Below, piece after piece: positions 6,188 to 23,086 of a DNA stretch of 28,987 bases. Origin of the DNA: a virus. The notes under the pieces are model-generated. The model worked only from the letters and a program-made list of their open reading frames with translations, was not told where the DNA came from and did not search any database. The number at the start of each line of letters is the position of its first letter. Within the stretch, counting starts at the first letter, position 1. Location: positions 1-28,987 of IMG/VR virus record IMGVR_UViG_3300049629_000152; one strand, given 5' to 3'. The position numbers and the translations under genes are program-made.

Positions 6188-6297
6188 AACTAAGTAAGCA
6201 ACTACCAAAGAAAGTAAGACGTTTAATGTATGGAATGTATATTAAAGGGGCAAATAAAGCAATGTTGTTTGAACAATTTATTCAATTATTTTGGTAA
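6184..6297 (+). CDS. Basic microprotein (37 aa), unknown
   Basis: ATG 6184 overlaps the previous stop and reads 37 codons to TAA 6295, overlapping the proposed TTG start of the sigma-like gene. The product is strongly basic at the front (MKLSKQLPKKVRRLMYGMY) and hydrophobic at the end (LFEQFIQLFW). It fills what would otherwise be a 103-base gap with an open frame coupled on both sides, which is the main support. Translating it could carry ribosomes to the TTG start of the next gene. Confidence 0.45.
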   Translation: MKLSKQLPKKVRRLMYGMYIKGANKAMLFEQFIQLFW

Positions 6298-6835: not shown

Positions 6836-7225
6836 ATGGCAAAGAGAGTAAGAAGAACAAAAGCAGAAATAGAAGCATCAAAAGGTTTAGGAGACACTAT
6901 TGATAAGATAACAACTGCAACTGGAATAAAAGCATTAGTAAAGTTTATTGCTGGAGATGATTGCGGATGTGATGAACGTAAAGAGAAACTAAATAAATTA
7001 TTTCCTTACAAAAAATTAAGTTGCTTAGTAGAAGACGAATACAACTACTTAACAAACTTTTTTAAGGTAACACATAGAGAAGCAATTAAACCAAGTGAAC
7101 AAATTGAACTATTAACAATTTACAATAGAGTATTTGGAACAAACGAAGAACCAACTCAATGCGGTTCATGTTGGAGAGAATACATTAACAACTTACAAAA
7201 AGTATATAACGAATATGAAAACTAA
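6836..7225 (+). CDS. Conserved cysteine-containing phage protein (129 aa), unknown
   Basis: The front is basic (MAKRVRRTKAEIEASKG), then GLGDTIDKITTATGIKA and AGDDCGCDERKEKLNKLFPY, a helical middle, and a closing QCGSCWREY. The cysteines fall as CGC near residue 43 and C-x2-C near residue 110, suggesting a metal site or disulphide. The architecture is recurrent in Bacteroidota phages just upstream of terminase, as I recall, but no role is known. It lies six bases after the sigma-like gene and probably belongs to the same transcript. Confidence 0.65.
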   Translation: MAKRVRRTKAEIEASKGLGDTIDKITTATGIKALVKFIAGDDCGCDERKEKLNKLFPYKKLSCLVEDEYNYLTNFFKVTHREAIKPSEQIELLTIYNRVFGTNEEPTQCGSCWREYINNLQKVYNEYEN

Positions 7226-8155: not shown

Positions 8156-8422
8156 ATGAAAACACACGGAGGTAAAAGAGAGGGTGCAGGTCGTAAACCA
8201 ATTACAGAAGAAGTAAAAGGTTTTACATTAGCGTTACCACACGTTGAAGATGCTTTTAGAGTTATTGCTGAAATAATGCTAGATGAAACTAAAAGACCAA
8301 CAGATAGAATTGCAAGTGCAAAAATATTAATTGAATACGGTTGTGGTAAACCAAAAGAAACAGTAGACAATACTATAACTTTAAACGATATTAACTTAAA
8401 AGAACTTGTTAACTTTAAATAA
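8156..8422 (+). CDS. Terminase small subunit (probable)
   Basis: 88 residues opening with MKTHGGKREGAGRKP, an AT-hook-like basic motif found at the front of many Bacteroidota phage terminase small subunits and other DNA-binding phage proteins. The middle is helical (PTDRIASAKILIEYGCGKPKE), as expected for the DNA-binding and oligomerisation helices. It directly precedes and overlaps the large subunit by 17 bases. The small subunit recognises the packaging site and hands DNA to the motor. It is short for the family (usually 120-180 residues), so the call leans on the motif and its neighbour. Confidence 0.7.
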   Translation: MKTHGGKREGAGRKPITEEVKGFTLALPHVEDAFRVIAEIMLDETKRPTDRIASAKILIEYGCGKPKETVDNTITLNDINLKELVNFK

Positions 8423-9614
8423 AAAGTACATCCCATTATTTGCAAGTGATTCTCGATACTATGTTGTAACTGGTGGTCGTGGTAGTGGTAAATCATTTGG
8501 TATAACAGTATTTTTAGAGCTTCTAACGTACGAAGTCGGACACGTTATATTATTTACTAGATATACTTTAACGTCTGCTCACGTTTCTATTATTCCTGAG
8601 TTTATAGAAAAGATTGAATTGGCAGGATTACAAAACGATTTCTACATAACAAAGGATGAAATTATAAATTTAAAGACTGGTTCAAAGATATTGTTTAGAG
8701 GTATTAAAACAAGTAGCGGTAATCAAACGGCTAATCTTAAATCTTTATCAGGTGTTACAACGTGGGTGCTAGATGAAGCAGAGGAGTTAACAGACGAAGA
8801 TATATTTGATAAGATTGATTTATCTATTCGTAGTCAGATAAAACAGAATAGAGTAATTCTAGTATTAAATCCAGCAACAAAAGAGCATTTCATCTATCAA
8901 AAGTTTTTTGAAGCAAAAGGAGTTGAAGCTGGAAGCAATATTGAAAAAGGCGATACAACGTTTATACATACAACTTATGAGGATAATATAGAAAACCTTA
9001 GTGAAAGTTTCTTAAATCAAATAAAAGACGTACAGAAACGAAGACCAGAGAAGTATAAGCATACTATTTTAGGAGGTTGGTTAGATAAAGCAGAGGGTGT
9101 AATCTTTAACAATTGGAAAGTAGGCGAGTTTATAGAAGTAAGTCCAAGTATATTTGGTCAAGATTTTGGATTTAGCAATGACCCTACAACTTTAATTGAA
9201 ACTTCAATAGATAGTGCAAATAAAATTATCTATGTAAAACTACATATTTATCAAACACACTTAACTACTTCACAAGTTTACGAACTTAACAAAACATTTG
9301 CTAACGATTCACTTATAATTGCTGATTGTGCAGAGCCTAGATTAATAAACGAATTACAAGAACGAGGATTGAATATTGAACCAGCAGTTAAAGGTGCTGA
9401 TTCTGTACGTTATGGTATTGCACTATTACAAGATTACGACATGATAATAGATGAAAGTAGTATAGAGTTAATTAAAGAGTTAAATAATTATTGTTGGTTA
9501 GAGAAGAAATCAGAAACTCCGATAGATAAATATAATCACGCACTAGATGCTTTACGTTATGCAGTAACTTATCAGATAAACGAAAACCAAAATAACTTAC
9601 CATTCATTCGATAA
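8406..9614 (+). CDS. terL: Terminase large subunit
   Basis: 402 residues. ATPase domain: Walker A GGRGSGKS at 23-30, Walker B WVLDEAEE at ~120-127, coupling-type segment VLNPATKEHF. Nuclease domain with the expected acidic residues: D253 (FGQDFGFSNDP), D307 (IIADCAEP) and H378/D381 (YNHALDALRY). It pumps DNA into the prohead and cuts the concatemer; the sequence has the look of the PBSX/Terminase_3 group. The start must be non-ATG: an in-frame TAA lies three codons before TTG 8406 and the next methionine is near residue 345, so TTG 8406 is chosen. Translation is probably coupled to the small subunit through the overlap. Confidence 0.93.
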   Translation: MLTLNKKYIPLFASDSRYYVVTGGRGSGKSFGITVFLELLTYEVGHVILFTRYTLTSAHVSIIPEFIEKIELAGLQNDFYITKDEIINLKTGSKILFRGIKTSSGNQTANLKSLSGVTTWVLDEAEELTDEDIFDKIDLSIRSQIKQNRVILVLNPATKEHFIYQKFFEAKGVEAGSNIEKGDTTFIHTTYEDNIENLSESFLNQIKDVQKRRPEKYKHTILGGWLDKAEGVIFNNWKVGEFIEVSPSIFGQDFGFSNDPTTLIETSIDSANKIIYVKLHIYQTHLTTSQVYELNKTFANDSLIIADCAEPRLINELQERGLNIEPAVKGADSVRYGIALLQDYDMIIDESSIELIKELNNYCWLEKKSETPIDKYNHALDALRYAVTYQINENQNNLPFIR

Positions 9615-9615
9615 T

Positions 9616-9640
9616 ACAAATAATAAAAATAAACGTTTTA
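9616..9640 (+). promoter_or_regulatory. Putative phage late promoter 1 (ECF-like bipartite motif)
   Basis: ACAAA at 9616-9620, 11 bases, AACGTTTTA at 9632-9640, then five bases to ATG 9646. The same two boxes with the same 11-base spacing precede three other structural genes. Read as TAC-N16-CGT it has ECF-promoter geometry. It would start the tail operon with an almost leaderless mRNA. Confidence 0.55.
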
Positions 9641-9645
9641 ATATT

Positions 9646-10341
9646 ATGAAATTAGAGTTAATTATACCCGAAAGTCTTAATGAAGTTCCTTTGATGCACT
9701 ATCAACAGTTTGTAGATGATGTAAAAGGTAGTGAAGACGAAGATTACATAGGGCAAAAATTAGTCGAAAGGTTTTGTGGAATACAATTAAAAGATATAGT
9801 TACAATTAAACAAAAGGACATACTTAATTTAACTAATCATTTTAACGAACTATTCAAGAAAAAGAATGAGTTTAAAACTAGATTCAAGATACAAGGAGTT
9901 GAATTTGGATTTATAACCGATTTAGAGAACATTACAAGTGGCGAATACATAGATTTAGAAAAATACTTACAAGACGTTCAAACGCTTCATAAGGCTATGG
10001 CAGTAATGTATAGACCAATAGTTAAAGAGAAAGGCGATAAATACGAAATAGAACCTTATCAAAGTGCTTTAAACTATGCTGAGGTTATGAGATACGCTCC
10101 ACTAGATATTGTTTTAGCTTCTCAGGTTTTTTTTTGGACTTTAGGGCAACAATTGTTGAAAGCTATTCCTACCTTTTTGAATCAGGAGATGAAGAAAATG
10201 AGCAAGAAACAGCAGGCGACTTTAGTGGAGCGACTCAATTTGCAAAACAGTGGGGATGGTATACAAGTATATATGAACTCGCTCAGGGAGATGTTAGAAG
10301 ATTCGATGAAGTCACAAAACTTTCCATTCATCAATGCTTAA
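9646..10341 (+). CDS. Tail assembly chaperone (gpG-like, zero-frame product)
   Basis: 231 residues, starting five bases after the late-promoter-like motif. Mostly helical, with HKAMAVMYRPI at ~117-127 and FFWTLGQQLLKAIP after the T-run; this is the pattern of tail chaperones upstream of tape-measure genes in Bacteroidota phages. Such chaperones bind the tape measure while the tail tube forms. The gene contains a nine-T run (10127-10135). A -1 slip there leads into the overlapping frame 10134-10388, as in lambda G/GT. Both readings downstream of the slip look like protein: zero frame ends with VERLNLQNSGDGIQVYMNSL, while the -1 frame ends with a WGWYTSIYELAQGD segment. Confidence 0.75.
   Translation: MKLELIIPESLNEVPLMHYQQFVDDVKGSEDEDYIGQKLVERFCGIQLKDIVTIKQKDILNLTNHFNELFKKKNEFKTRFKIQGVEFGFITDLENITSGEYIDLEKYLQDVQTLHKAMAVMYRPIVKEKGDKYEIEPYQSALNYAEVMRYAPLDIVLASQVFFWTLGQQLLKAIPTFLNQEMKKMSKKQQATLVERLNLQNSGDGIQVYMNSLREMLEDSMKSQNFPFINA
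10128..10134 (+). promoter_or_regulatory. -1 ribosomal frameshift site (T TTT TTT)
   Basis: In the zero frame the codons are GTT TTT TTT TGG, giving a textbook X-XXY-YYZ heptamer T-TTT-TTT at 10128-10134. Slipping back one base enters the frame that ends at 10388. A short palindrome CAACAATTGTTG (10147-10158) lies 12 bases downstream, where a stimulatory structure would be expected, but its stem is only four base pairs. Confidence 0.6.
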
Positions 10342-10388
10342 CATGGTTAACATATAAGAAACAAAGACAAGAAATATTTAAGGAATGA
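10134..10388 (+). CDS. Tail assembly chaperone, -1 frame extension (gpGT-like)
   Basis: 84 codons open from the slippery run to TGA 10386. There is no ATG; the first codon after the slip is TTG 10134, so this is read as the C-terminal part of a frameshift fusion of ~247 residues (163 from the zero frame plus 84). The sequence is protein-like: an acidic linker (FESGDEENEQETAGD), then QFAKQWGWYTSIYELAQGD and VTKLSIHQCLTWLTYKKQRQE, a pattern typical of the second tail chaperone. Its stop overlaps the next ATG (10385), which supports translation through to this stop. The family role is to link the chaperone to tape measure and tube subunits. Confidence 0.7.
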   Translation: MDFRATIVESYSYLFESGDEENEQETAGDFSGATQFAKQWGWYTSIYELAQGDVRRFDEVTKLSIHQCLTWLTYKKQRQEIFKE

Positions 10389-10840
10389 AAGGACACTTAC
10401 AAATAATAGATGCAATTCGTACACAGTTAGAAAGTGAAGAATTTGTAAATACAATAAGCGAGGGTAGTTTATTTGATATAGATTTAAATAAGGTTACTAT
10501 ATTTCCTTTAGTTCATTTAATAGTTAACAACTACGCTTTTGAGGGTAAAGTTATAAAATGCAATATATCTATACTTTACTTAGATTTAGTTGATGTATCA
10601 AAAAAAGAGGTTACTGATATATTTGTAGGTAATGATAATAAACAATACGTACAAAATACTGCAGTACTTTTATTAAATAGAATCTATCAACAATTAGTGC
10701 ATGGTAGTTTATACGATTTAGGTTATCAATGTACAACAGAACCAACTGTAGAAATATGGGAGGAACGATTTGAAAACTATTTAGCAGGTGGAACTTTAAC
10801 AGTTGATATTACTTTCTTTCCTGATATGACAATATGTTAA
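10385..10840 (+). CDS. Tail completion/terminator-like protein (probable)
   Basis: 151 residues, start overlapping the -1 chaperone stop. The sequence alternates beta and alpha (IIDAIRTQLES, TIFPLVHLIVNN, NISILYLDLVD, TAVLLLNRIYQQL) and ends in beta strands with GGTLTVDITFFPDM. The size, fold pattern and position between tail chaperones and a gp10-like protein fit the tail terminator/completion group that caps the tail tube. No catalytic motif is expected or seen. The exact structural role is inferred from position. Confidence 0.5.
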   Translation: MKGHLQIIDAIRTQLESEEFVNTISEGSLFDIDLNKVTIFPLVHLIVNNYAFEGKVIKCNISILYLDLVDVSKKEVTDIFVGNDNKQYVQNTAVLLLNRIYQQLVHGSLYDLGYQCTTEPTVEIWEERFENYLAGGTLTVDITFFPDMTIC

Positions 10841-11355
10841 ATAACGAAATACAAAAAGACTTGCAGAAATTTACAGACTACGTAATTAAACAAGCGAAGT
10901 CAAACTTAACACGTCTAAAAAAGAATAGCACTAAGTCTTTATATGATAGCTTAAAAGGAAACGTGAAAGTAAGTAAGAACTCTTTTGAATTATCTATTGA
11001 GATGGAGGAGTACGGACACTTTCAAGATAAAGGTGTTAACGGATTAAAGAGAAGCCAAAACGCACCTTATTCATTTAGAAAGGGTGTACCAAGTAAAGCA
11101 ATGATTAATAGTCTAGATAAATGGATTATGACAAAAGGCATTGCACCACGTGGAAAGGATGGTAGATTTATTGACCGTAAAAGTTTAAAGTTTGCAATAG
11201 CACGAAGTATTTTTAACAAAGGAATTAAACCAAGTTTATTTTTAACTAAACCATTTGAACAAGCATTTAAAACTTTACCAGATGAACTAATTGAAAAGTT
11301 CGGATTAGAGGTTTTAGATTTATTTGATTTCACATTACAAACACCAAAGAAATGA
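10834..11355 (+). CDS. HK97 gp10-like head-tail/tail completion protein (probable)
   Basis: 173 residues. An N-terminal helix (IQKDLQKFTDYVIKQAKSNL) leads into a basic region (RLKKNSTKSLYDSLKGNV), beta strands (FELSIEMEEYGHFQDKGVNG) and a long C-terminal helix. The EYGHFQDKG segment resembles the Y(A/G)xxxExG stretch of HK97 gp10-type neck proteins. It overlaps both neighbours by a few bases. The assignment is by pattern and location. Confidence 0.5.
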   Translation: MLNNEIQKDLQKFTDYVIKQAKSNLTRLKKNSTKSLYDSLKGNVKVSKNSFELSIEMEEYGHFQDKGVNGLKRSQNAPYSFRKGVPSKAMINSLDKWIMTKGIAPRGKDGRFIDRKSLKFAIARSIFNKGIKPSLFLTKPFEQAFKTLPDELIEKFGLEVLDLFDFTLQTPKK

Positions 11356-12407
11356 GTAACAGAATTTTTTCAAGGTCGCCTTTCATTATAGAGGTTAACG
11401 AAGCATTACAAACGAGTAGTAAAATAGAGGTCTTTTTGTGGAACTCAGGAAGTGTGCCAAGTTCACCACAATACACACTTAGTAAAGCAATACCAAGTAG
11501 CACTAACTTGCAAACGTTGTATAATGTTTCACCATTAATTCGTGAATACATTAAGTTTATTAATCCATCTTTAAATTATAACTCAGTAGGTGGAACAGTA
11601 AACAGTAAAGCATTCTGTAACGTGCAAATTAAACGATATAAGAACACATCTACGTTATTAGATACAACTACATATTATGCGTTTGATGGTTATAGTGAAT
11701 ACGTACAAGGCTATAACTATGATAGAGGGCAATACTTACTAGATGAGGGTACGTATTATTATTACTATGATGATTCATCTACATTTTCATCTACTAAGGC
11801 AGGTGATATTACATTAGAGGTTACAAGTGGCGAGAAAGTTAAATATACTAATTTAGTTAGTGGTGTAACAAGTACATTTACTTTTGCAGTTACGGGTGTT
11901 AAAACGCTTCACAGAGTTAATGGAACATATTGGGCAGATGGTAATAAGTTAGAGATTCTTGATGCTTCAAATGTAGTTTTAAGAACTTACTATTTCAGAC
12001 CTATTGAGGAATGTAAATACACACCATTACCAATTGACTTTGTTAATAAGTACGGAGCATGGCAAAGAGAGTGGTTTTTTAAAGCAAGTTTCGACAATAT
12101 CGAAATTCAAAACACTGAATATAATTTAATGCCTGATGTTTTACCTAGTTATTCATATAGAGAGGGACAAACTAAAACGTTTAACACGAACGCAAAAGAA
12201 AGTATAAGAGTAAATACGGGTTGGGTTAATGAAAACTTTAAAAACACTATTCAAGAAATAATGCTTAGTGAAAGAATTTTATTAAATGATTTGCCAGTAA
12301 GGTTAAAAACTAAATCTATTGAGAAATTCAAGTCTATTAATTCAAAAACTATTAACTACACATTAGAATTTGATTACAACTACAACACTTTAAACAACGT
12401 TATCTAA
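11352..12407 (+). CDS. Large tail structural protein A (351 aa)
   Basis: Beta-rich throughout, aromatic and Thr/Ser-rich, with a Tyr-dense stretch near residues 120-140 (DEGTYYYYYDDSS) and a charged C-terminal region (IREIML-type helices followed by TINYTLEFDYNYN). There are no enzyme motifs. Located between tail completion genes and the 791-residue protein, with four-base and one-base overlaps, it is probably part of the tail tip or distal tail. The function is from position only. Confidence 0.55.
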   Translation: MSNRIFSRSPFIIEVNEALQTSSKIEVFLWNSGSVPSSPQYTLSKAIPSSTNLQTLYNVSPLIREYIKFINPSLNYNSVGGTVNSKAFCNVQIKRYKNTSTLLDTTTYYAFDGYSEYVQGYNYDRGQYLLDEGTYYYYYDDSSTFSSTKAGDITLEVTSGEKVKYTNLVSGVTSTFTFAVTGVKTLHRVNGTYWADGNKLEILDASNVVLRTYYFRPIEECKYTPLPIDFVNKYGAWQREWFFKASFDNIEIQNTEYNLMPDVLPSYSYREGQTKTFNTNAKESIRVNTGWVNENFKNTIQEIMLSERILLNDLPVRLKTKSIEKFKSINSKTINYTLEFDYNYNTLNNVI

Positions 12408-14782
12408 TGAGAAAGGTAGACTTATATATTGAAACGGTAGAGAATAGTGGAAACTACTCTAAAATAGAATTGTTTAACGATGAAGAAATTACAGTATCTA
12501 GTTCAATACAAAACATTAATGATATTAGTAAGATATTCACCGACTACTCTCAATCTTTTACTGTTCCATCAAGCGTTGTTAATAATGCAATATTTGAACA
12601 CTTTTACAATAATGATGTAGATACTTTACTAGACCATAACCTAAGAAGAAATGCTTATATAGAAATTGATTATATGCCATTTAGAACGGGTAAAATTCAA
12701 TTAGAAAAAGCAAGTGTAAAGAATAACCAAAACGAAAACTATTCGATTACTTTTTACGGTGAAGTTTTAAGCCTTAAAGATAAGTTTGGGGAAACTAAAC
12801 TAAAAGATTTAGATGTTACTTTTGTAGATGCTCCTTACACGGGTACTGATGTACAAACTGCAATAACAAATACTACTGATGTAGACGTACGATATCCGTT
12901 AATTACTTCACAAAGGCTGTGGACTTATGGAGATGCAACAAGTACTGATATAAGTACAACGGGTGGCAAGATAAACTACACAGAGTTATTTCCTGCTTTA
13001 AAGATTTCTAAGATATTTGAAGCTATTGAGTTAAGATGGTCGATTGATTTTCAAGGTTTGTTTTTATCTAATACTAGATTTACTAATTGTTTTTTATACC
13101 TAAAGAATAAAGAATCATTTGAGATTTTAACAGAAGCACAAAGGGTAAATGTAGTTACTTCAGACAATCATTTAGATAGTACAGCAGGTTTTCAAATAAT
13201 TAATCCTACTACTGATGTAGTTAATTTTAAATATTGGAATCAATACAGTTATTTCCTTTATGGAAACCAGTCATTAGAATTGGTTATTAGTGGGTGTTCC
13301 AATTTAAGTGCAACTTACTATATCGACATATACGAAAATAACACTTTAATAAACACTTTAACGGGGTCAGGTAACGCAACTTATAGTATAATTAACTATG
13401 CAACAGTTGTTGGATTAGACAAAGAAATTTACTGCACACTAAGAGCGAATCAAACCGTATCATTAACATTTAATTATAATTATACAGTTGAAGAAACTTA
13501 CGATTTCGGTTTAGCTTCAGGAGGTGCAAGTAATGTTATAACTGAAAGTGATATTGTTTACGGTATAGGTACGGCTCAAACACTTACAACTGCTTATATT
13601 GACTTGGCTTCATTCATGCCTGACATGACCGTATACGACTTTTTAAGTGGGATATTTAAAAACTTTAATTTAACGTGTTACGCTAAGAGTAAAACTATAT
13701 TTCAGATTGAGCCTTTAGATGATTGGTATAATAAGGGGCGAATTATAGATATAACTAAATATACAACAACAGAAGAAATAACAGTTTCAAGAATACCACT
13801 TTATAAGACTATTAAGTTTGAGCATGAGCAAAGTCAGTCTTTTATGAATAGAGAATTTGCTGAGTTATTTGGCAAAGAGTATGGCGACTTATTTAACACT
13901 TATGATTATGATGGTGGCGACTATGTGATTAAAGTACCTTTTGAAAACTTACTACATTCTGAGTTTGATGGTACAATGACACAAGTCGGATTCTGTTTAA
14001 CAAAAGCACCTGAACATAAACCGTACGTACCTAAACCAATTTTGCTTTATATGTATGAGCAACAAAGTACAAGTATTAAATTCTTTGATGGAACAACTAC
14101 AAATACTTTAACTACTTATATGCCATTTGGACAAGACATGAAACAGTTAAGCACTAACTATTCTTTAAATTGGGGTTCTGATAATTCAAGTCTTTTAAAT
14201 GTGCCTATTACTATGGGTAAATTTGCAACATATTACTATGGTTATTTATCTAACTTGTTTAACAAAAAGAATAGAGTTACAACGGTTAAAACTATCTTAC
14301 CATTAAGCATACTTACAAGGTTAAAGCTAAATGATAGGTTAGTAATAAGAGATAAGCGATATATCATTAATCAAATGAATAGCTCTTTAACTAGTGGTGA
14401 GGTCAACTTAGAATTGATAAACGACTTTAGAAGTATACAAGGTACAACGGTACAAGTAACGGGTAAACCTACAAGCGTAGTTAGTACACAAATACTATTT
14501 CCTAATTTCGTTAAGAGTGCTACTATAACAACAACTTCACCAGGAGTTACTATTTCACCAAGCACAATAACGAGTGAGCAGTATGTTGATATTACAACGG
14601 TAACAGATACAAATGTATACTACGGTAGAATTACAGAAGATGGTAACATCCGTGTTACTGAAACGTTTTCTAATAGAATAACAGAACAAGGATATAATAC
14701 AATTATTCCTATTGAAGTAGAATACACTTTTGAAGATGGCACAACAGACACTTATACACAATACATAATTCAACAACAATGA
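12407..14782 (+). CDS. Large tail tip/baseplate-like protein B (791 aa)
   Basis: The front ~130 residues (RKVDLYIETVENSGNYSKIELF through FRTGKIQLEKASV and YSITFYGEVLSLKDKFG) read like a distal-tail or hub domain that wraps the tube end. The middle is beta-rich with a candidate hub-like segment (MNREFAELFGKEYGDLF). The last ~110 residues look like an immunoglobulin-like beta-sandwich (ATITTTSPGVTISPS...), often used for surface contact. No peptidase or lysozyme motif was seen. Its stop overlaps a 52-residue gene that leads into the tape measure. The call is structural tail protein with moderate confidence; hub versus fibre cannot be decided by eye. Confidence 0.55.
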   Translation: MRKVDLYIETVENSGNYSKIELFNDEEITVSSSIQNINDISKIFTDYSQSFTVPSSVVNNAIFEHFYNNDVDTLLDHNLRRNAYIEIDYMPFRTGKIQLEKASVKNNQNENYSITFYGEVLSLKDKFGETKLKDLDVTFVDAPYTGTDVQTAITNTTDVDVRYPLITSQRLWTYGDATSTDISTTGGKINYTELFPALKISKIFEAIELRWSIDFQGLFLSNTRFTNCFLYLKNKESFEILTEAQRVNVVTSDNHLDSTAGFQIINPTTDVVNFKYWNQYSYFLYGNQSLELVISGCSNLSATYYIDIYENNTLINTLTGSGNATYSIINYATVVGLDKEIYCTLRANQTVSLTFNYNYTVEETYDFGLASGGASNVITESDIVYGIGTAQTLTTAYIDLASFMPDMTVYDFLSGIFKNFNLTCYAKSKTIFQIEPLDDWYNKGRIIDITKYTTTEEITVSRIPLYKTIKFEHEQSQSFMNREFAELFGKEYGDLFNTYDYDGGDYVIKVPFENLLHSEFDGTMTQVGFCLTKAPEHKPYVPKPILLYMYEQQSTSIKFFDGTTTNTLTTYMPFGQDMKQLSTNYSLNWGSDNSSLLNVPITMGKFATYYYGYLSNLFNKKNRVTTVKTILPLSILTRLKLNDRLVIRDKRYIINQMNSSLTSGEVNLELINDFRSIQGTTVQVTGKPTSVVSTQILFPNFVKSATITTTSPGVTISPSTITSEQYVDITTVTDTNVYYGRITEDGNIRVTETFSNRITEQGYNTIIPIEVEYTFEDGTTDTYTQYIIQQQ

Positions 14783-14937
14783 TAGCACAAATAATTCAAC
14801 TATTACAAATATCCGATTTCTACGGTGAAAGTAATTTAATTGATATTGCAAAAGGTAAGCATAAGATTGAAACTACTTGGAAAGGAAATATGAAGCAAGG
14901 AATTAGAAAAATAAAAGCAATTAAAAATGGCTATTAA
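14779..14937 (+). CDS. Small basic protein (52 aa) between tail protein B and tape measure
   Basis: ATG 14779 overlaps the previous stop (ATGA) and the frame runs 52 codons to TAA 14935, overlapping the tape measure start by 11 bases. It fills the whole gap between the two genes. The product is helical at the front (MIAQIIQLLQISDFYGE) and basic at the end (WKGNMKQGIRKIKAIKNGY). The overlap at both ends supports a translated gene; the role is unknown. Confidence 0.6.
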   Translation: MIAQIIQLLQISDFYGESNLIDIAKGKHKIETTWKGNMKQGIRKIKAIKNGY

Positions 14938-16627
14938 AAAGGAAATAGAATTAGACATTAAGGTTGAAAGTATAGGTAATCTTAAAAGTCAACTTAAAGC
15001 AGCACAAAGAGAAGTAGAAACACTTGCAGAAAAGTTTGGAGCAACATCAGAACAAGCAACAGAAGCAGCAAAAAAAGCAGCACAGTTAAAAGATGCTATT
15101 GGAGATGCAAAAGCGTTAACTGATGCCTTTAATCCTGATGCTAAATTTAATGCTTTTGGTGTAGCGTTACAAGGTGTTGCTGGTGGATTTAGTGCAGTAC
15201 AAGGTGCTATGGGTTTAGTAGGTGTAGAATCTAAAGACGTTGAAGCTACCTTATTGAAAGTTCAAAGTGCAATGGCATTAAGTGAGGGATTAAACTCGGT
15301 AATGGCTGCAAAAGATTCGTTTACAAACTTAGCTGCGGTAATTGGAAAAACTGCAATAGGTCAAAAACTTTTAACTGCTGCACAAATTGCTGGTGCTGCT
15401 GCAATGAGAGTGTTGAATGTTGTAATGGCTGCAAATCCTATAATGTTAATTGTTACAGGTGTTACGGCTTTAGTAGGTGCATTTTATTTACTTACTAGGT
15501 CAACAGATAAACAAGCACTAGCAGAAAAAGAATTAAATAGACAAAAGGAGTTATCTATTAAGTTAACTAAGATACAACAAGAGGATGCAGAAAACTATGT
15601 AAAAAGTTTACAAAAAAATTCAGCAAATAAAATAGCATTAAGAAAAGCAGAGGGTGCAAATGATGAAGAAATTTATCAATTAGAGAAAGCAAGGTTAGAG
15701 GAGCAAATTAGGTATATAAAATTACTACATGATTCAGGTGTAAAATTAACTGCTGAGCAATATGCAAATCAGAAACAAGCTAAATACGATTTAAAAATAT
15801 TAGAAGCACAACATCAAACAGATTTAAAAGAAATAAGAGATAAAGCAGAAGCAGAAAGAGATGCCAAAGATAAAGAACGTAAAAAACAAAAAGCAGAAGA
15901 TGATGCAATAGAAGCAGAAAGACGTGCTATGATGGCACAAGGCGAGATAGATGCAGATGCTGCTGCGTATGCTTATTTTGCAGAACAAGATAGAAAAAGA
16001 GCAGAAGAAAAAGAAGCTGCTAGATTAAAAGAATTAGAAGATGCTCAAATGTATGCAGATTTACATGAGCAAATAAGACTTAAAGACTTACAAAACGAAA
16101 AGGAAAAAGAAGAAGCTAAAAAACAATTAAGAGCAAATCAAATTCAAGGTGTAGAAAATACGCTTGCAATGATTTCAAATCTTACTGAGTTATTTGCTGG
16201 TAAAAGTGCAAAACAACAAGAGAGAGCATTTAAAATTCAAAAGGCTATCAATATAGCAAGTGCGGTTATAGATACTTATAAGGCTGCTAATATGGCATTA
16301 GCTTCTTCTCCTCCTCCATTTAGTTTTATTGCTGCTGGTGCTGCTATTACTGCGGGTTTATTAAACGTTAAAAAAATAGCTTCTCAACAGTTTCAAGGTG
16401 GTACTGCTTCAAGTGGTGGAGGCAGTTCATTTAGTGGAGGTGGCTCAATGGCTTCAAGTGGTGGAGGTACTGCTTCAAATGTAATAACTCCAAACTTTAA
16501 TATAGTTGGTAATAACGGACAAAATCAACTTGGACAAATTGCACCCGTTCAAGCGTATGTTGTAAGTAGCGAAATGACTACACAACAAGCACTAGATAGA
16601 AACAGATTAAGAAATGCAACGTTTTAG
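14927..16627 (+). CDS. Tape measure protein (short)
   Basis: 566 residues. An Ala-rich helical front (~1-75), a small-residue hydrophobic region with a likely membrane-spanning stretch near residues 160-190 (VVMAANPIMLIVTGVTALVGAF), a long charged coiled coil (~190-400: Lys/Glu/Ala/Gln-rich), a second hydrophobic segment near 450-475, and a Gly/Ser-rich tail. This is the classic tape-measure layout. The protein sets tail length and later exits into the host envelope. At about 1.5 angstrom per residue it implies a tail near 85 nm, an estimate only. Unusually, it follows rather than precedes the large tail-tip genes. Confidence 0.85.
   Translation: MAIKKEIELDIKVESIGNLKSQLKAAQREVETLAEKFGATSEQATEAAKKAAQLKDAIGDAKALTDAFNPDAKFNAFGVALQGVAGGFSAVQGAMGLVGVESKDVEATLLKVQSAMALSEGLNSVMAAKDSFTNLAAVIGKTAIGQKLLTAAQIAGAAAMRVLNVVMAANPIMLIVTGVTALVGAFYLLTRSTDKQALAEKELNRQKELSIKLTKIQQEDAENYVKSLQKNSANKIALRKAEGANDEEIYQLEKARLEEQIRYIKLLHDSGVKLTAEQYANQKQAKYDLKILEAQHQTDLKEIRDKAEAERDAKDKERKKQKAEDDAIEAERRAMMAQGEIDADAAAYAYFAEQDRKRAEEKEAARLKELEDAQMYADLHEQIRLKDLQNEKEKEEAKKQLRANQIQGVENTLAMISNLTELFAGKSAKQQERAFKIQKAINIASAVIDTYKAANMALASSPPPFSFIAAGAAITAGLLNVKKIASQQFQGGTASSGGGSSFSGGGSMASSGGGTASNVITPNFNIVGNNGQNQLGQIAPVQAYVVSSEMTTQQALDRNRLRNATF
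16602..16626 (+). promoter_or_regulatory. Putative phage late promoter 2 (ECF-like bipartite motif)
   Basis: ACAGA at 16602-16606, 11 bases, AACGTTTTA at 16618-16626, five bases to ATG 16632. It overlaps the last codons of the tape measure gene. AAC-N16-CGT geometry is retained. The match also supports ATG 16632 over 16614 as the protease start. Confidence 0.55.
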
Positions 16628-16631
16628 AATT

Positions 16632-17213
16632 ATGAAAAAGATACAAGATATTGAAATGATTATTAGTGATGAGTCCCAAGATGGGGTTTTCGCTATTTCG
16701 CTAGTTGATAAACCAGCAATTCAAGAAGATTTTATTTATTTGTCTAGTCATGAAATTGAATTAAAGGTAGTAAACGAAGAAAAAAGAGAGGTTGTAGGTA
16801 TTGCTTTAGTTCCTGATAAAAAGATTTACAGAAATGTAGATGGTCAAGAGTTTAATATTTACTTTACTTCACAAACTATTGAAAAGACAAATGAACTTTT
16901 CATGCGTAATCTAAACCTAAATAAAATTACTTCACAACATGAAAGAGATGTTGAGGGTGTAAGTGTTATTGAAAGTTGGATTGTTGAAGATTCTAAACAG
17001 GATAAATCTAATATATATAAGTTAAACGCTCCAGTAGGTAGTTGGGTTGTAAAGATGAAAGTTTACAACGATAGCGAGTGGGTACGTGTTAAGAATGGAG
17101 AGTACAAAGGTTTCTCAATTGAGGGCAAATATAAAGAAGCAGAAGTAAAAGCGAGTGAGCAAGTAGATGAAACTACTGAGCTAATAAATGAAATAGAAAA
17201 CTTAATTAAATGA
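16632..17213 (+). CDS. XkdF-like prohead maturation protease (putative)
   Basis: 193 residues from ATG 16632; ATG 16614 is in frame but lies inside the promoter-like motif. The sequence follows the XkdF-like pattern closely: GVFAISLVDKPAIQEDFIYL at ~18-37, VVGIALVPDKKIYR, SQHERDVEGVSVIESWIVED at ~101-120 and KNGEYKGFSIEG near 155-166. His103 and Ser115 are candidate catalytic residues by analogy with phage prohead serine proteases; the third residue is not identified. The enzyme would cut scaffold and capsid N-termini during head maturation. It opens the head module, ahead of scaffold and capsid genes. Confidence 0.8.
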   Translation: MKKIQDIEMIISDESQDGVFAISLVDKPAIQEDFIYLSSHEIELKVVNEEKREVVGIALVPDKKIYRNVDGQEFNIYFTSQTIEKTNELFMRNLNLNKITSQHERDVEGVSVIESWIVEDSKQDKSNIYKLNAPVGSWVVKMKVYNDSEWVRVKNGEYKGFSIEGKYKEAEVKASEQVDETTELINEIENLIK

Positions 17214-18496
17214 GTTTACCGTATTACGTAAGATATAAAGATTCAACTGCAATAAGCGGTACTAACTATTTATATTTTGACGATGGTAGCGAATATTTAA
17301 GACGTATTTTATTTAGTGACTTTTCAAACGAAGTAGGCACAAGTATTGCAAGTGGAAACATTGTATTTATTGCTAGTAAGTCAGATTTACCAACTGCTAG
17401 TGGTGGTGTTATTACTTTAGCTAATAATATTACTTATTTTATAACTGCAATTGTAGATTTAACTGGTGATAGGTTAGTGGCTGGGCAGAATACTGTAATA
17501 CTAGGGGCATCATCAGAAAACTGCTATTTAAAATCTACTGGTTTAAATTCATCTACTGCTTTAATTACGGGTAACTATTCTTTACCAATTAGAAATATAT
17601 CATTCACTCACGGTAAAGTATTTGATTTGGATGGTGATGGTGTAACTACGGCATTAGATTGGTTCGGTATTAACTTTGTAGATTGTCAAACAGTTGGAAC
17701 GATTAAAGACTATTCTAATTTTGTAATGACTGATTCTGCTTTCTTAAATGCAAGTGGTTTGACGTTTGATGGTACAATTGGAACAGTAGCTTTTGGAAAT
17801 TGTTTATTTGATAATTATGCAAGTGGTACGGCTATCACTATTCCAAGTACTGCAACTATATCAAGACGTTTTAGAATTATTTATTCATCATTTATTACTT
17901 CATCAGGTGAAACATCTATTAACGTTTCAAGTTCTGCAAGTATAGGAAATGAAAGATATATTTTAGATACCGTTAATTTCTCAGGTGGCGGAACTTATAT
18001 ATCAGGAGTTGACGATACAAGTAATAAATCATTATTCATTAATTGCGTAGGTATAACTAATACTGCAGTTAATGGTCAATTGTATATGCAAGGTAATGCT
18101 ACTGCAACGGTAGTAAGTGCTTCAAATACGTTTTATAAAGTATTAGGTACAACAACGGCTAGTTCAGATAATGCTAAATATACTCACTCAAATAACCGAT
18201 TAACAAACGATGCTAGTGTAAGTAGAAAATATCTAATTCAGTGTGTTTTATCGTTTACAAGTTCAGCAAATGACGTGTGCGAATTTGGTTTTTACGATAG
18301 TAAATTAAGTGCAGTTAGAACACCTAGTAGAACGAAAGCAACTGCAAATGCTGCTGGTCGTGCTGAAAACGTTTCTTTTAGTTGTGTAGTATCTCATATT
18401 CAAAACGACTATTTAGAGATTCATTGTAGAAATACATCAGGAGCAAGGAATATTACAGTAGACCAATTAAACTTCATAGTAACAGAAATAAAATAA
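17210..18496 (+). CDS. Right-handed beta-helix protein, putative spike or decoration
   Basis: 428 residues. After a ~45-residue front (MSLPYYVRYKDSTAISGTNY...) comes a long run of short hydrophobic strands broken by Asn/Gly/Ser turns (residues ~60-300), the look of a pectate-lyase-like parallel beta-helix, with FDLDGDGVTTALDWF at ~138-152 as a possible calcium-binding-like turn. The last ~120 residues (KYLIQCVLSFTSS... to VDQLNFIVTEIK) look like a jelly-roll or trimerisation domain. Such proteins serve as tail spikes, polysaccharide depolymerases or head fibres. The gene lies between the protease and scaffold genes and overlaps the protease stop by four bases. The biochemical activity cannot be read from sequence. 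Confidence 0.6.
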   Translation: MSLPYYVRYKDSTAISGTNYLYFDDGSEYLRRILFSDFSNEVGTSIASGNIVFIASKSDLPTASGGVITLANNITYFITAIVDLTGDRLVAGQNTVILGASSENCYLKSTGLNSSTALITGNYSLPIRNISFTHGKVFDLDGDGVTTALDWFGINFVDCQTVGTIKDYSNFVMTDSAFLNASGLTFDGTIGTVAFGNCLFDNYASGTAITIPSTATISRRFRIIYSSFITSSGETSINVSSSASIGNERYILDTVNFSGGGTYISGVDDTSNKSLFINCVGITNTAVNGQLYMQGNATATVVSASNTFYKVLGTTTASSDNAKYTHSNNRLTNDASVSRKYLIQCVLSFTSSANDVCEFGFYDSKLSAVRTPSRTKATANAAGRAENVSFSCVVSHIQNDYLEIHCRNTSGARNITVDQLNFIVTEIK

Positions 18497-18501
18497 ATAT
18501 A

Positions 18502-18699
18502 ATGGCAAAAAAGAAAACAGTTAGTCTAACAAGTCCACAAGGTGGAGATAGAGGTTGTTTATGTCCTGATGGTACATACTCTAAAGAATGTTGTGATGGT
18601 ACACTAGAAGCACAAGGAATTGGAGCATTACAAGGGCATACAATTTCAAATGTTACAAACACAAATGAACCACGTACAATTGTAACACAAAGAGGTTGA
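18502..18699 (+). CDS. Cysteine-rich small phage protein (65 aa)
   Basis: A basic front (MAKKKTVSLTSPQGG) is followed by GCLCPDGTYSKECCDGT, with four cysteines in twelve residues, and then a polar tail. The CxC...CC cluster is a candidate metal site or disulphide knot. It sits five bases after the beta-helix gene and before a late-promoter-like motif. I recall similar CLC-DGTYSxECC proteins in the structural regions of other Bacteroidota phages but know of no function. Confidence 0.65.
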   Translation: MAKKKTVSLTSPQGGDRGCLCPDGTYSKECCDGTLEAQGIGALQGHTISNVTNTNEPRTIVTQRG

Positions 18700-18705
18700 T
18701 ATATA

Positions 18706-18730
18706 ACAGAGTAATTAACTAAACGTTTCA
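18706..18730 (+). promoter_or_regulatory. Putative phage late promoter 3 (ECF-like bipartite motif)
   Basis: ACAGA at 18706-18710, 11 bases, AACGTTTCA at 18722-18730, six bases to ATG 18737. One C/T difference from the other boxes. It would drive the scaffold and major capsid genes, the highest-demand products. Confidence 0.5.
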
Positions 18731-18736
18731 AGTATA

Positions 18737-19342
18737 ATGAAAGATAAATTAAAAAGCGTTAGAGAGTTTTTAGAGCAAAAATTCAACGTGAAATTAAAGT
18801 TAGAACAAATGGAGGTAAAATTAGCACAAATGAAACTTGCTGATGGTGTTACTGTTTTAGAGTTCGATGCCTTAGAAGTTGGTAAAGAAATTTTCATTGT
18901 TTCAGAAAATGGAAATGTACCAATGCCTATTGGAGAGTACGAACTTGAGGATGGTAATATGTTGGAAATTTACGAAGATGGTATCATTGGAGAAATTAAA
19001 GCACCTGAGGCAAAAGAAGAAGAAGCACCAGCAGAAGCACCAGAAGCTGAAATGCCAGTTGAGGCATCAGTTGAAGCACCACAAGTAGCTAAGAAAACAG
19101 TTGAAACAGTATCTAAAGAAACGTATTTCTCAGAAATGGAAGAGTTAAAGAGAGAAATTACTGAACTTAAAGAACAGTTAAAACTAAAAGAGGAGGTTAA
19201 AGAGGTAGTATTGGAAGAAACTCCAAAACCTATAACTTTTAATCCTGAGAATGTTCAGAAAATAGAGCAAATTAAATTAACTGCTCAAAAAACACTATCA
19301 GCAAGAGATAGAATTTTAAACACTATTTACAACAACAAATAA
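18737..19342 (+). CDS. Capsid scaffolding protein (probable)
   Basis: 201 residues, directly upstream of the major capsid gene. The front is a coiled coil (LKSVREFLEQKFNVKLKLEQ), then a small beta unit (ADGVTVLEFDALEVGKEIFI with MPIGEYELEDGNML), a Pro/Glu/Ala-rich linker near residues 95-120, and a second coiled coil (SEMEELKREITELKEQLKLK) ending in a basic helix. Low complexity, high charge and helicity are typical of internal scaffolds that are removed by the protease. The C-terminal basic helix would contact the capsid protein. The role is inferred from position and composition. Confidence 0.7.
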   Translation: MKDKLKSVREFLEQKFNVKLKLEQMEVKLAQMKLADGVTVLEFDALEVGKEIFIVSENGNVPMPIGEYELEDGNMLEIYEDGIIGEIKAPEAKEEEAPAEAPEAEMPVEASVEAPQVAKKTVETVSKETYFSEMEELKREITELKEQLKLKEEVKEVVLEETPKPITFNPENVQKIEQIKLTAQKTLSARDRILNTIYNNK

Positions 19343-19356
19343 ATAATAAATAACAA

Positions 19357-20313
19357 ATGGCAACTACTGCATCAATTACAAGTACATATGCTGGAGAATC
19401 TTCAGGGAAATATGTTAAAGCTGCTTTATTAAGTGGTAACACTTTATCAAGTGGAAAAATTACTATTTTACCAAACGTTAAATACAAAACTGTACTTCAC
19501 AGATTGTTAACTGATGATTTGTTAAAAAATGCGTCATGTGATTTTACTGCTACTTCAACAGTAACTTTAAATGAGAAAGTATTAACTCCGAAAGAGTTAC
19601 AAGTAAATTTACAATTGTGTAAATCAGATTTTAAAGGTACATGGGAAGCGGAGTCAATGGGGATGTCTGCACATGATGTACTTCCTAAAAACTTCTCTGA
19701 TTTCTTAATTGCTTACGTTATCGAAAAAGTTGCTTCTCAAGTTGAGGTTGCTATTTGGAGAGGTGCAACAGGTACTTCTGGGTCTATTGATGGTTTCATG
19801 ACTCAATTGACTGTTGACGCTGCTTTACCAACTGCAAATGAGGTTGCTGGTACTACTGTTACTGCTTCAAACGTTATTACTGAGTTAGGGAAAATTGTTG
19901 ATGCAATTCCTGCTACACTTTACGGTCGTGAAGATTTATACTTATATGTTTCTCAAAACATCGCTAGAGCATACGTAAGAGCATTAGGTGGATTCGGAGC
20001 TTCTGGATTAGGTGCTAACGGTTCAAACGCACAAGGAACACAATGGTATCAAAACTTAGCAGACCTTTCTTTTGATGGTGTGAAAATCTTTGTTGCTAAT
20101 GGATTAGCTTCTAATACTGCTATCGCTACAACAGTAGACAACTTATTCTTCGCAACTGGATTGTTGAATGATTCAAACTTAGTTAAAGTATTGGACATGG
20201 CGGATTTGGATGGTTCTGAAAATGTAAGATTCGTTATGAGAGCAACTGCTGCGGTTGGTTACCATACAGTTGGAGATATCGTAACTTACGGAATTACTAA
20301 CGCTGCTAACTAA
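19357..20313 (+). CDS. Major capsid protein, HK97 fold
   Basis: 318 residues. Features consistent with an HK97-fold capsid: an N-terminal arm rich in Thr/Ser/Gly, an E-loop-like segment, a spine helix in FSDFLIAYVIEKVASQVEVAIWRG (~112-135), and A-domain strands (DLYLYVSQNIARAYVRALGG; FDGVKIFVANGL) with a final beta strand VRFVMRATAAVGYHTVGDIVTYG. Codons are noticeably enriched in C-ending forms (aac, ttc, atc) relative to neighbouring genes, as expected for a very highly translated protein. It follows the scaffold gene by 14 bases and is closed by a strong terminator. Confidence 0.85.
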   Translation: MATTASITSTYAGESSGKYVKAALLSGNTLSSGKITILPNVKYKTVLHRLLTDDLLKNASCDFTATSTVTLNEKVLTPKELQVNLQLCKSDFKGTWEAESMGMSAHDVLPKNFSDFLIAYVIEKVASQVEVAIWRGATGTSGSIDGFMTQLTVDAALPTANEVAGTTVTASNVITELGKIVDAIPATLYGREDLYLYVSQNIARAYVRALGGFGASGLGANGSNAQGTQWYQNLADLSFDGVKIFVANGLASNTAIATTVDNLFFATGLLNDSNLVKVLDMADLDGSENVRFVMRATAAVGYHTVGDIVTYGITNAAN

Positions 20314-20331
20314 TAATTAGCATACTTAATT

Positions 20332-20363
20332 AAAGGGTGGTGAGAGATACACCGCCCTTTTTT
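20332..20363 (+). terminator. Rho-independent terminator after the capsid gene
   Basis: AAAGGGTGGTG (20332-20342) pairs with CACCGCCCTTT (20350-20360), with one G-T pair and a seven-base loop, followed by T residues to 20363. It isolates capsid transcription from the next gene. Confidence 0.85.
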
Positions 20364-20388
20364 GTTTAACAAATAAAAATTTAAAATT

Positions 20389-20937
20389 ATGGCTTGTGAT
20401 TTAGCAAACGGTAGAGCAGAGAGTTGTAAAGATGCAGTAGGTGGTATTGACATCATTTACATTGCAAACTTCAATCCTACTATGCAAAGTGATTTAACGT
20501 ATGATGTAACGTCTACGGATATGATTACTGATGTAAACAATATTTCTAACCTTTATAAGTTTTCTTTAAAAGGTAATAACTCATTTAATCAAAAAGGTGT
20601 TTCTTCAAGGGAAAACGGAACAACTTACTTTGAACAAACTTTGACTATTGACTTGAAAAAACAAGACGTAGCTACGACTAAGATGGTTAAATTATTATCT
20701 TATGGTAGACCACATATTGTTGTAAGAAATAGACAAGGGCAATACTTCTTAGCTGGTTTAGAGTTCGGAATGGATGTTACAGAGTCTGGAATTGAAAACG
20801 GTGTTCAAATGGGAGATTTCAATGGATATAAACTTACATTTACTGGAATGGAAAGAATACCAGCAAATCATTTGAACTGTTCAACAGAAGCTGCTTTAGC
20901 AACTTTATTTAGTTCTGCTACTATTGTTACTTCTTAG
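20389..20937 (+). CDS. Probable major tail (tube) protein
   Basis: 182 residues beginning MACDLANGRAESCKDAVGG. The rest is an alternating beta fold with a central helix (LTIDLKKQDVATTKMVKLLSYG), then HIVVRNRQGQYFLAGLEFGMDV and GYKLTFTGMERIPA, consistent with a tail-tube or major tail fold. It is bracketed by two terminators, an arrangement suited to high, independent expression. No promoter of either class is recognised in the 25 bases after the upstream terminator, so it may depend on readthrough. Tail tube is preferred over a second capsid protein by size and fold pattern. Confidence 0.65.
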   Translation: MACDLANGRAESCKDAVGGIDIIYIANFNPTMQSDLTYDVTSTDMITDVNNISNLYKFSLKGNNSFNQKGVSSRENGTTYFEQTLTIDLKKQDVATTKMVKLLSYGRPHIVVRNRQGQYFLAGLEFGMDVTESGIENGVQMGDFNGYKLTFTGMERIPANHLNCSTEAALATLFSSATIVTS

Positions 20938-20957
20938 TAATTAACTACTACTACATG

Positions 20958-20988
20958 AAAGGCTATCTTTAATTAGGTAGCCTTTTTT
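20958..20988 (+). terminator. Rho-independent terminator after the tail-tube gene
   Basis: AAAGGCTATC (20958-20967) pairs with GGTAGCCTTT (20976-20985), one G-T pair, eight-base loop, then T residues to 20988. A late-promoter-like motif starts six bases later. Confidence 0.85.
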
Positions 20989-20993
20989 ATTTA

Positions 20994-21018
20994 ACAAATT
21001 ATTGATTTAAACGTTTTA
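20994..21018 (+). promoter_or_regulatory. Putative phage late promoter 4 (ECF-like bipartite motif)
   Basis: ACAAA at 20994-20998, 11 bases, AACGTTTTA at 21010-21018, five bases to ATG 21024. AAC-N16-CGT geometry is exact. Its position directly after a terminator is what a real promoter would need, because the downstream portal operon otherwise has none. Confidence 0.6.
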
Positions 21019-21023
21019 AAGAT

Positions 21024-21356
21024 ATGATAGTTTTAAGAGAACAAAATACTGCTCAAACATTTAGTTTCATTCCTCGTAGTGATACTTATACTACTATGAC
21101 TATAACGGATGAACAAACGAATGTAACTACTACGGTTGCCATTACAAGTTCAACGAATGTAAGCTATTACCATACGATTACGGCAACTTTCTCACTAATT
21201 GAGGAGCATACATATAGGTTAGAGGTTTTAAACTCAACTACACTAGTTTATATAGATAAAATATACTGTACTAATCAGACTATTTCAGACTATACAATAA
21301 ATAAAGATGTGTACACAAGTACAACTACATCAAATGACTTCATAATTTTAGATTAA
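21024..21356 (+). CDS. Small beta-sandwich structural protein (110 aa)
   Basis: Thr/Ser/Tyr-rich, with alternating strands (TFSFIPRSDTYTTMTITDEQ, YYHTITATFSLIEEHTYRLEVL) and an end segment KIYCTNQTISDYTINKDVY. It looks like one immunoglobulin-like or fibre-type beta-sandwich. It begins the operon that contains the portal and ends by sharing a base with the portal start. It may be a head or tail decoration; no firm function. Confidence 0.55.
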   Translation: MIVLREQNTAQTFSFIPRSDTYTTMTITDEQTNVTTTVAITSSTNVSYYHTITATFSLIEEHTYRLEVLNSTTLVYIDKIYCTNQTISDYTINKDVYTSTTTSNDFIILD

Positions 21357-23086
21357 TGGATAACGAAAAAATACAAGTAATCAACCTTGCTGAATATAAA
21401 GCACCGATTATTAACGAAAGTACTAGAGAGGATTGGGTTGAATACGGCGAGGATAACAACTATTTCCAATTCTTAATTGATAGACATATAAATAGTGCTA
21501 CAAATAACGCAGTAATTAATAATATTACTAGACTTATTTACGGTAAAGGGTTGACTGCATTAGACGCTAATAAAAAACCTAATGAATTTGCTCAATTAAT
21601 TACTTTGATTAGTTCGGAGGATTTAAGAAAAATTAGTGTTGAAGCGTATTTATTAGGTCAATGTGCTATTCAAGTACACTACGATAAAGGTAGAACTAAG
21701 ATATTAAAAGCGTATCATATACCTGTTCAATTATTACGTGCTGAAAAGTGCAATGAAGATGGAGAGATTACTGGTTATTACTATTCTGATAATTGGGAAG
21801 ATGTTAAAAAATACAAACCTAAAAGATTAGATGCTTTTGGTTTTGGTAAATCAGAAATTGAAATACTTTATGTTAAACCTTATTCAGTAGGCATGAAGTA
21901 TTACTCAAACGTTACTTATACGGGTGGTTTACCTTATACGATAATGGAGGAGGAAATTGCGGAGTATTTAATTAACGATGTTCAAAACGGGTTTAGTCCT
22001 ACAATGATAGTTAACTTTGTTGGAGGTACGGGAACGGAGGAGCAAAGAAGACAAATTGAAGCACAAGCGAATAAAAAGTTAACGGGAAGCAAAGGTAAAA
22101 AGATAGTTTATTCATTCAATAAAAATAAGGATAACGCTACTACGGTTGAATCTATTCCTTTGAATGATGCACCAGCACACTATCAATATTTGAGTGAGGA
22201 GTGTATGCGTAAGATATTACTTTCACATAATGTTACTTCGCCTTTATTATTTGGTATTGCAACAACAACTGGATTTTCTTCTAATGCAGACGAATTAAAA
22301 AACTCTTTATTAATATTTGATAACTTGGTAATTAAACCATATCAAAACTTAATTATAGATGCAATAGATAAGATTTTAGCAGTTAACGGAATTAGTTTAA
22401 AACTATACTTCGAGGGTTTAAATCCTTTTGAAGATATGTTTGCTAAAAAAGAAGAAGCAATTGTTCAAGATACAACTTTATCTAGTCAAGAATTAGACTT
22501 ATCAGAATTTGGAGAGGAGTTAAACGAAGATGAATGGATATTAATTGATTCGCATAAAGTTGATTATGATAATGAGGATGAATTAGATGCAAAAATAAAT
22601 GAGTTAAATAACCAAAAACCAACAAAATTAAAGCAAATAATTAACCTAGTTAAAACGGGTGTAGCAAATCCAAACGCTTCATCTAGTCAAGATGGCGAAA
22701 TATTCAAGTCAAGATATAGATATAGTGGTAATATAGGCGAAAATTCAAGAGCATTCTGTAAAGCAATGTTAAGTTCTAATAAAGTATATCGTAAAGAGGA
22801 TATTATTAGAATGGAGGCACAAGAAGTAAATAAAGGTTGGGGTCCCGAGGGAGCAGATAACTACTCTATTTGGTTATATAAAGGAGGAGGAGATTGCCAC
22901 CATTATTGGACTAGAGAAACCTATTTAAGAAAATCAGATGTTAACTCTCCATTAGCTAAAAAATTCACTCCAAGCGAAGCAAGAAAACAAGGAGAGATAT
23001 TACCAACAAATGATAATAGAGTATATCAAAAACCAAAAGATATGCCTTATAATGGATTTTTACCTACAAATAAACGCTTTAAATAA
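21356..23086 (+). CDS. Portal protein with C-terminal MuF-like extension
   Basis: 576 residues. Residues ~1-410 look like a portal: DWVEYGEDNNYFQFLIDRH near the front, NAVINNITRLIYGKGL, a wing and stem (IMEEEIAEYLINDVQNGFSPTM), then YLSEECMRKILLSHNVTSPLLFG and LLIFDNLVIKPYQNLIIDAI, matching the portal stem/clip order. Residues ~465-576 form a separate domain (SRYRYSG..., ENSRAFCKAML, KVYRKEDI, GADNYSIWLYKGGGDCHHYW), with a C-H-H-x-W cluster resembling the CRH segment of MuF/gp7 head-morphogenesis proteins. The portal forms the dodecameric DNA gate at the head vertex. It lies far from terminase, an unusual arrangement. Confidence 0.8.
   Translation: MDNEKIQVINLAEYKAPIINESTREDWVEYGEDNNYFQFLIDRHINSATNNAVINNITRLIYGKGLTALDANKKPNEFAQLITLISSEDLRKISVEAYLLGQCAIQVHYDKGRTKILKAYHIPVQLLRAEKCNEDGEITGYYYSDNWEDVKKYKPKRLDAFGFGKSEIEILYVKPYSVGMKYYSNVTYTGGLPYTIMEEEIAEYLINDVQNGFSPTMIVNFVGGTGTEEQRRQIEAQANKKLTGSKGKKIVYSFNKNKDNATTVESIPLNDAPAHYQYLSEECMRKILLSHNVTSPLLFGIATTTGFSSNADELKNSLLIFDNLVIKPYQNLIIDAIDKILAVNGISLKLYFEGLNPFEDMFAKKEEAIVQDTTLSSQELDLSEFGEELNEDEWILIDSHKVDYDNEDELDAKINELNNQKPTKLKQIINLVKTGVANPNASSSQDGEIFKSRYRYSGNIGENSRAFCKAMLSSNKVYRKEDIIRMEAQEVNKGWGPEGADNYSIWLYKGGGDCHHYWTRETYLRKSDVNSPLAKKFTPSEARKQGEILPTNDNRVYQKPKDMPYNGFLPTNKRFK

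Follow-up and report, generated by a model that had tools for sequence, protein, structure and literature searches.

The 28,987 bases of the uncultured-virus record IMGVR_UViG_3300049629_000152, which make up the whole stretch analysed here and are referred to as the window, contain four copies of the bipartite motif ACARA-N11-AACGTTTYA, each ending 5 or 6 nt before the start codon of the first gene of an operon. Very probably, these sites are late promoters of the virion operons that are read by host core RNA polymerase (RNAP) together with a phage sigma factor of the extracytoplasmic function (ECF) type, encoded at 6291–6830, and that yield leaderless or nearly leaderless mRNAs. A preliminary description of this DNA had already proposed promoters for a phage-specific sigma factor, and this is supported by operon-head specificity, a terminator, ECF-like geometry, the concordance of box variants within a phage and the presence of a sigma gene near the terminase. 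The fixed distance to the ATG points further to leaderless late mRNAs, which that description had left undeveloped.

As originally reported, the motif has exactly four matches in the window, all on the plus strand, where dinucleotide shuffles lead to an expectation of 0.01. The putative late promoter P1 (9616–9640), comprised of the −35 box ACAAA and the −10 box AACGTTTTA, lies 5 nt before the ATG at 9646 and heads the tail operon, while P2 (16602–16626) overlaps the 3′ end of the tape-measure gene and heads the protease operon, 5 nt before the ATG at 16632. P3 (18706–18730) heads the scaffold/capsid operon at a distance of 6 nt from the ATG at 18737, and P4 (20994–21018) heads the pre-portal/portal operon at 5 nt from the ATG at 21024. 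The skeleton (A/T)AC-N16-CGT, which had been likened to ECF promoter geometry, is present in all four sites. Elsewhere in the window, AACGTTTTA occurs on the plus strand at 25605, as had been noted; the claim that this is the only additional place did not stand, since the minus strand carries it at 12173 and 28642.

The preliminary description had pointed to close relatives as the place where the motif could fail, and there the same genes retain it, with variation in the other bases. More than 300 related loci were gathered by four scans of IMG/VR; the first set comprised 89 non-redundant loci (1.24 Mb), a held-out set comprised 32 additional non-redundant loci retrieved with the portal and sigma factor of Nonlabens phage P12024L, and a pattern with the boxes in reversed order served as the control for motif counts. 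The strict consensus recurs in close relatives, with the ATG 5 or 6 nt past the motif in every match, and it represents the clade-specific form of a broader motif, ACA-N15..17-[ACG]GTT[AT], which was seen upstream of homologues of the four downstream genes even at 35–60% protein identity. Among the 128 sites in the 89 loci, the distance from the G of GTT to the ATG of an open frame was 11 nt in 116, 10 in 4 and 12 in 8, as compared with 4 control sites at 11 nt; the box spacing was 16 in 98, 15 in 18 and 17 in 12. In the held-out loci, 31/33 sites lay at exactly 11 nt and no control site did. P12024L and P12024S, the closest cultured relatives of the window (terminase 54% identity, portal 37%), carry seven sites apiece, every one with an ATG at 10 or 11.

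Within the 89-locus set, the motif marks the heads of operons. It precedes 41/51 of the protease homologues, 29/35 of the pre-portal homologues and 15/36 of the scaffold homologues, and it was found before none of the genes inside operons that were inspected, namely portal (0/37), capsid (0/37), tape measure (0/56) and the homologues of genes 10834 (0/48) and 20389 (0/46). Several matches without a homologue in the window stand before short genes in the scaffold position. The motif is not a by-product of coding conservation, because it moves relative to a conserved C-terminus yet stays fixed to the ATG: in the window P2 overlaps the final codons of the tape-measure gene (NRLRNATF-stop), whereas in relatives with the same C-terminus (NRLRNAT) it is shifted downstream of that stop and is still 11 nt from the ATG. 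A generic matrix applied without the ATG was rejected as a site finder, being unspecific in A-rich DNA with many matches in coding sequence; its recurrent loose matches 22–26 nt ahead of start codons seem to represent conserved C-termini encoded by the preceding genes.

Terminators provide a further kind of context. An intrinsic terminator on the plus strand at 20957–20986 (12-bp stem, −15.8 kcal/mol, z −5.3) stops 7 nt short of P4, and a terminator stands directly upstream of all pre-portal sites (29/29), as compared with 22/1683 other gene starts. Transcription must restart at this point, which a translation signal would not supply. No terminator was found upstream of P1, P2 or P3 in the window. 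Separately, a second strong terminator-like hairpin is located at 20332–20360, directly after the capsid gene; the gene that follows, at 20389, is not preceded by the motif, and the hairpin is possibly a partial terminator favouring capsid expression.

The proposed cognate of P1–P4 is the product of the plus-strand gene at 6291–6830, a protein of 179 residues with regions sigma2 and sigma4. It matches phrog_1740, an RNA polymerase sigma factor family (E 4e-8), and a profile built from 39 sigma homologues matches the Mycobacterium tuberculosis ECF sigma factor SigL (E 4.5e-4). Sigma70_r2 was matched by 12/39 of the homologues; the window protein itself has no Sigma70 match in Pfam. The AlphaFold2 model (mean pLDDT 85) predicts two helical domains and, between them, a linker of low confidence, that is, the ECF architecture of sigma2 and sigma4 without sigma3 in about 180 residues. 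Specifically, the best solved structures found by Foldseek are Escherichia coli sigmaE and M. tuberculosis SigL, with SigH also found (probability 1.0), and the modelled C-terminal domain aligns with region 4 of sigmaE in its complex with −35 DNA (TMt 0.84, 1.7 Å). The global TM-scores are low (0.3–0.4), as expected with two mutually misplaced domains. Judged by profile and predicted fold, this protein and its homologues upstream of the terminase are ECF-type sigma factors.

A sigma gene lies no more than 6 kb upstream of the terminase in 27/29 testable loci, and the other two (L036 and L070) carry one farther off. P12024L and P12024S likewise encode a sigma-70 region 2 protein before the terminase. 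When the window sigma was used as a single tblastn query against isolated phages, no match was obtained, and the P12024L sigma, gp35, found only itself and its counterpart in the sister phage; the link to these phages was made via portal and terminase. In Riemerella phage RAP44 and Olleya phage Harreka_1, which have related terminases, the ATG-linked motif was not found, and their annotations list no sigma factor, although a divergent one was not tested for by profile. A box matching the host-type sigmaA −7 consensus, TATATTTG, occurs on the plus strand at 5991–5998 ahead of the short operon that holds the sigma gene, and by this consensus match it is a candidate early promoter for that operon.

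The boxes themselves vary between phages and agree within them. When sites were shuffled among phages within gene families, the concordance of the −10 flavour, i.e., the bases around GTT, was 0.66 within a phage versus 0.51 (sd 0.018) in permutations, none of 2000 of which reached the observed value. In the held-out loci, the three bases before ACA were 98% identical among the promoters of one phage and 44% identical between phages (concordance 0.98 against 0.46; 0/5000 permutations). The concordance of the −35 flank was weaker in the first set of 89 loci, and the four sites of the window agree in the −10 box and not in the −35 flank. Concordance within a phage together with divergence between phages is expected for a co-evolving trans-acting factor.

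Several side observations concern this pairing. The −35 flank triplets GTC, GTT, GTA, ATA, TAA and TGA were phage-specific in loci L332, L336, L346, L352, L353, L357 and L379, and GGG was found in L363 and L364. The P12024-type sigma factors (L401, L404, L403 and L407) share the region 4 recognition helix SAYKLWSK and the −35 box AAAACA; in L365, by contrast, the helix reads SRMYVHRQ and the −35 box is GGGACA. At residue 72 in region 2, arginine is found in 5/5 sigma factors of phages with C before GTT (C-type) and also in two of the A-type, and lysine in 12/14 of the A-type. The column-by-column co-variation between sigma residues and the base before GTT, including Arg72, can be no more than a lead with so few and such closely related sequences.

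The fixed distance indicates where late transcription should start. Known phage-sigma promoters, those of phages 7-11 and phiEco32, start 6–9 bp past the promoter element (PMC8948821). Since GTT occupies −11 to −9 when the A of the ATG is +1, counting 7–9 nt from it places the start at −2 to +1. The 5′ ends of the late transcripts should therefore fall on the start codon's first base or no more than about 3 nt from it, with no leader or almost none. A pyrimidine stands at −1 in 75/76 deduplicated late sites versus 23/30 host-type starts; this fits the usual pyrimidine/purine start dinucleotide, Y(−1)/A(+1), and is modest evidence for such a start. A at −3 was tried as a discriminator of late genes and rejected, as all genes share it; in this phylum it is a translation-favouring context (PMC6847099). 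In the same phages, intergenic host-type TAnnTTTG boxes mostly end 15–25 nt before the ATG, implying leaders, and a few, including the sigma-operon box in the clade of the window, lie only 3–4 nt from it. Just 5.5% of mRNAs are leaderless in a flavobacterial host (PMC9723704), and 87% of predicted flavobacterial transcripts have leaders longer than 10 nt (PMC6847099). Since host-type promoters are mostly leadered and leaderless mRNAs are rare in such hosts, the lock to the start codon is special to the late promoters. In the window, intergenic TAnnTTTG boxes were seen only outside the late region, at 1840, 5991, 26503 and 27660; at 5991 the distance to an ATG is 3 nt.

Together, these data are consistent with the following scheme. 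In the early phase of infection, the phage would express its early genes, the sigma gene among them, from TAnnTTTG-type promoters read by host sigmaA. Region 4 of the phage sigma would then read the ACA (−35) box and region 2 the (A/C)GTTWA (−10) box 16 nt farther on, whereupon host core RNAP with this sigma would start about 7–9 nt after GTT, on the first base of the start codon or at most some 3 nt from it, and the late mRNAs would begin at or beside the AUG. Such a lock may save space, or may select leaderless initiation late in infection.

Several points weigh against this scheme. We infer that this sigma reads these sites from their co-occurrence and from the concordance of the boxes. The start-codon context alone cannot place the start site, because genes with host-type promoters often have A at −3 and T at −1 as well. 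Only 17/53 of the tail-gene homologues are preceded by the motif, and many relatives overlap the upstream gene there. A loose matrix also matches A-rich coding DNA. Finally, in one subclade (L300, L301, L302, L307, L310, L313 and L298) the scaffold promoter lies 18–20 nt from the ATG with an A-rich stretch in between, so leaderlessness is not universal and a short leader is implied there; further exceptions to the lock are sites at 12–13.

The last of these points, as well as the retention of the translation-favourable A at −3 and T at −1, would also suit promoters of the same phage sigma whose transcripts are processed or have a short 5′ leader, with compact packing as the reason for the lock to the ATG. 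We consider this unlikely, because the 11 nt found in 116/128 and 31/33 sites is far tighter than packing needs, because the distances of host-type promoters in these genomes are spread out, mostly over 15–25 nt, and because −10 boxes that lie 6–9 bp before the start, as in 7-11 and phiEco32 (PMC8948821), leave no room for a leader at a distance of 11. The fixed distance to the ATG could alternatively reflect a translation signal, an mRNA sequence by which ribosomes are brought to the gene at the head of each operon, but this explanation is very improbable: the ACA box stands 30 nt upstream at a fixed spacing to GTT, a spacing kept where the ATG distance becomes 18–20, the motif is absent before the capsid and portal genes, and at every one of the pre-portal sites it directly follows a terminator.

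The promoters might instead serve an ECF sigma of the host, and Flavobacterium psychrophilum does have ECF promoters with a CGT −10 box (PMC9723704). The testable contigs, however, encode their own ECF sigma near the terminase, each phage has its own box variants, which agree among its promoters, and the phages with related terminases and no annotated sigma lack ATG-linked sites, which leaves a host factor quite improbable. The 8-bp palindrome AAACGTTT, present in 3/4 window sites, would fit a site for DNA binding, such as an operator, or one for packaging or methylation; the palindrome is not kept in relatives (AGTTATA, CGTTAATA), and the motif has two parts, a direction and a fixed distance to the ATG, so that we give this explanation next to no weight. 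Beyond promoters of the phage sigma that yield leaderless late mRNAs, we favour with some reserve the broader statement that across a whole lineage of Bacteroidota phages the late promoters have become fused with start codons, with nearly all virion operons leaderless via a phage ECF sigma and early genes mostly leadered.

Phage late sigma factors with bipartite promoters are already known. The protein gp47 of Salmonella phage 7-11 is a phage sigma working with host core RNAP, beside host-type early promoters, and its eight bipartite late promoters (GTAAtg-16-aCTA) share the 16-nt spacing and start 6–9 bp from the element; the sigma lineage and the boxes differ from those of the present group, and no start-codon lock is described for it in the text consulted (PMC8948821). 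In phiEco32, the phage sigma gp36 likewise directs middle and late transcription, but from a single-element promoter, tAATGTAtA, and without homology to region 4 (PMC8948821). Flavobacterial host ECF promoters (motif SM6) share the CGT-type −10 box but belong to a host regulon (PMC9723704). Xpf of Bacillus subtilis PBSX is a small ECF-like group IV sigma with sigma2 and sigma4 that controls the prophage (PMC10141391). PBSX is, however, a Firmicute prophage, and Xpf is likened here by description, not by homology or promoter sequence. Xpf is encoded beside a PBSX-type terminase and drives the late operon. Nonlabens P12024L and P12024S (Inhavirus) belong to the same phage group as the window, with homologous portal, terminase and protease, and differ from it in a spacer of mostly 17 and the −10 box CGTTAATA; no promoters are named in their deposited annotation. 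Individual leaderless genes in phages are no novelty, since the authors of a study on phage AR9 remark that phage transcripts are often leaderless (PMC5312081). In the open-licence literature we found no account of the late promoters of this group or of a start-codon-locked class of late promoters.

If the scheme is true, late expression would also switch the mode of translation initiation, and leaderless virion mRNAs would provide a clear test of the start mechanism in flavobacterial ribosomes, which skip Shine-Dalgarno pairing; the cultured phages P12024L and P12024S make the leaderless reading directly testable. The phage-specific boxes would offer co-evolved sigma–promoter pairs, a natural panel with separate specificities, in which the triplets before ACA represent a panel of −35 specificities. 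Additionally, the motif is a simple aid to annotating many uncultured phages, as it marks their late operons and the true start codons.

The plus-strand genes around the four sites are as follows. The terminase large subunit gene (8406–9614; PF04466, E 2.8e-29) is directly 5′ of P1, and the first gene after P1 (9646–10341) belongs to the tail region and matches phrog_32199, of unknown function. The first gene after P2 encodes an XkdF-like prohead protease (16632–17213; PF14550, E 1.9e-18); the list of open reading frames puts its start at 16614, inside the motif, and the homologues align from 16632. P3 is followed by a scaffold-like gene (18737–19342), which matches the C-terminal part of phrog_24921 and whose presumed scaffold role is based on position, and P4 by the pre-portal gene (21024–21356) and then the portal gene (21356–23086; phrog_33693, E 1.4e-112). 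The hosts of the phage group appear to be Bacteroidota-type bacteria; a scan of bacterial genomes gave two weak matches only, both in metagenome-assembled genomes, and did not narrow the host beyond Bacteroidia. Between the sigma gene and the terminase, a small conserved protein (KGLGDTI...) is encoded at 6836–7225, and its P12024L homologue, gp37, has its own putative ATG-locked late promoter.

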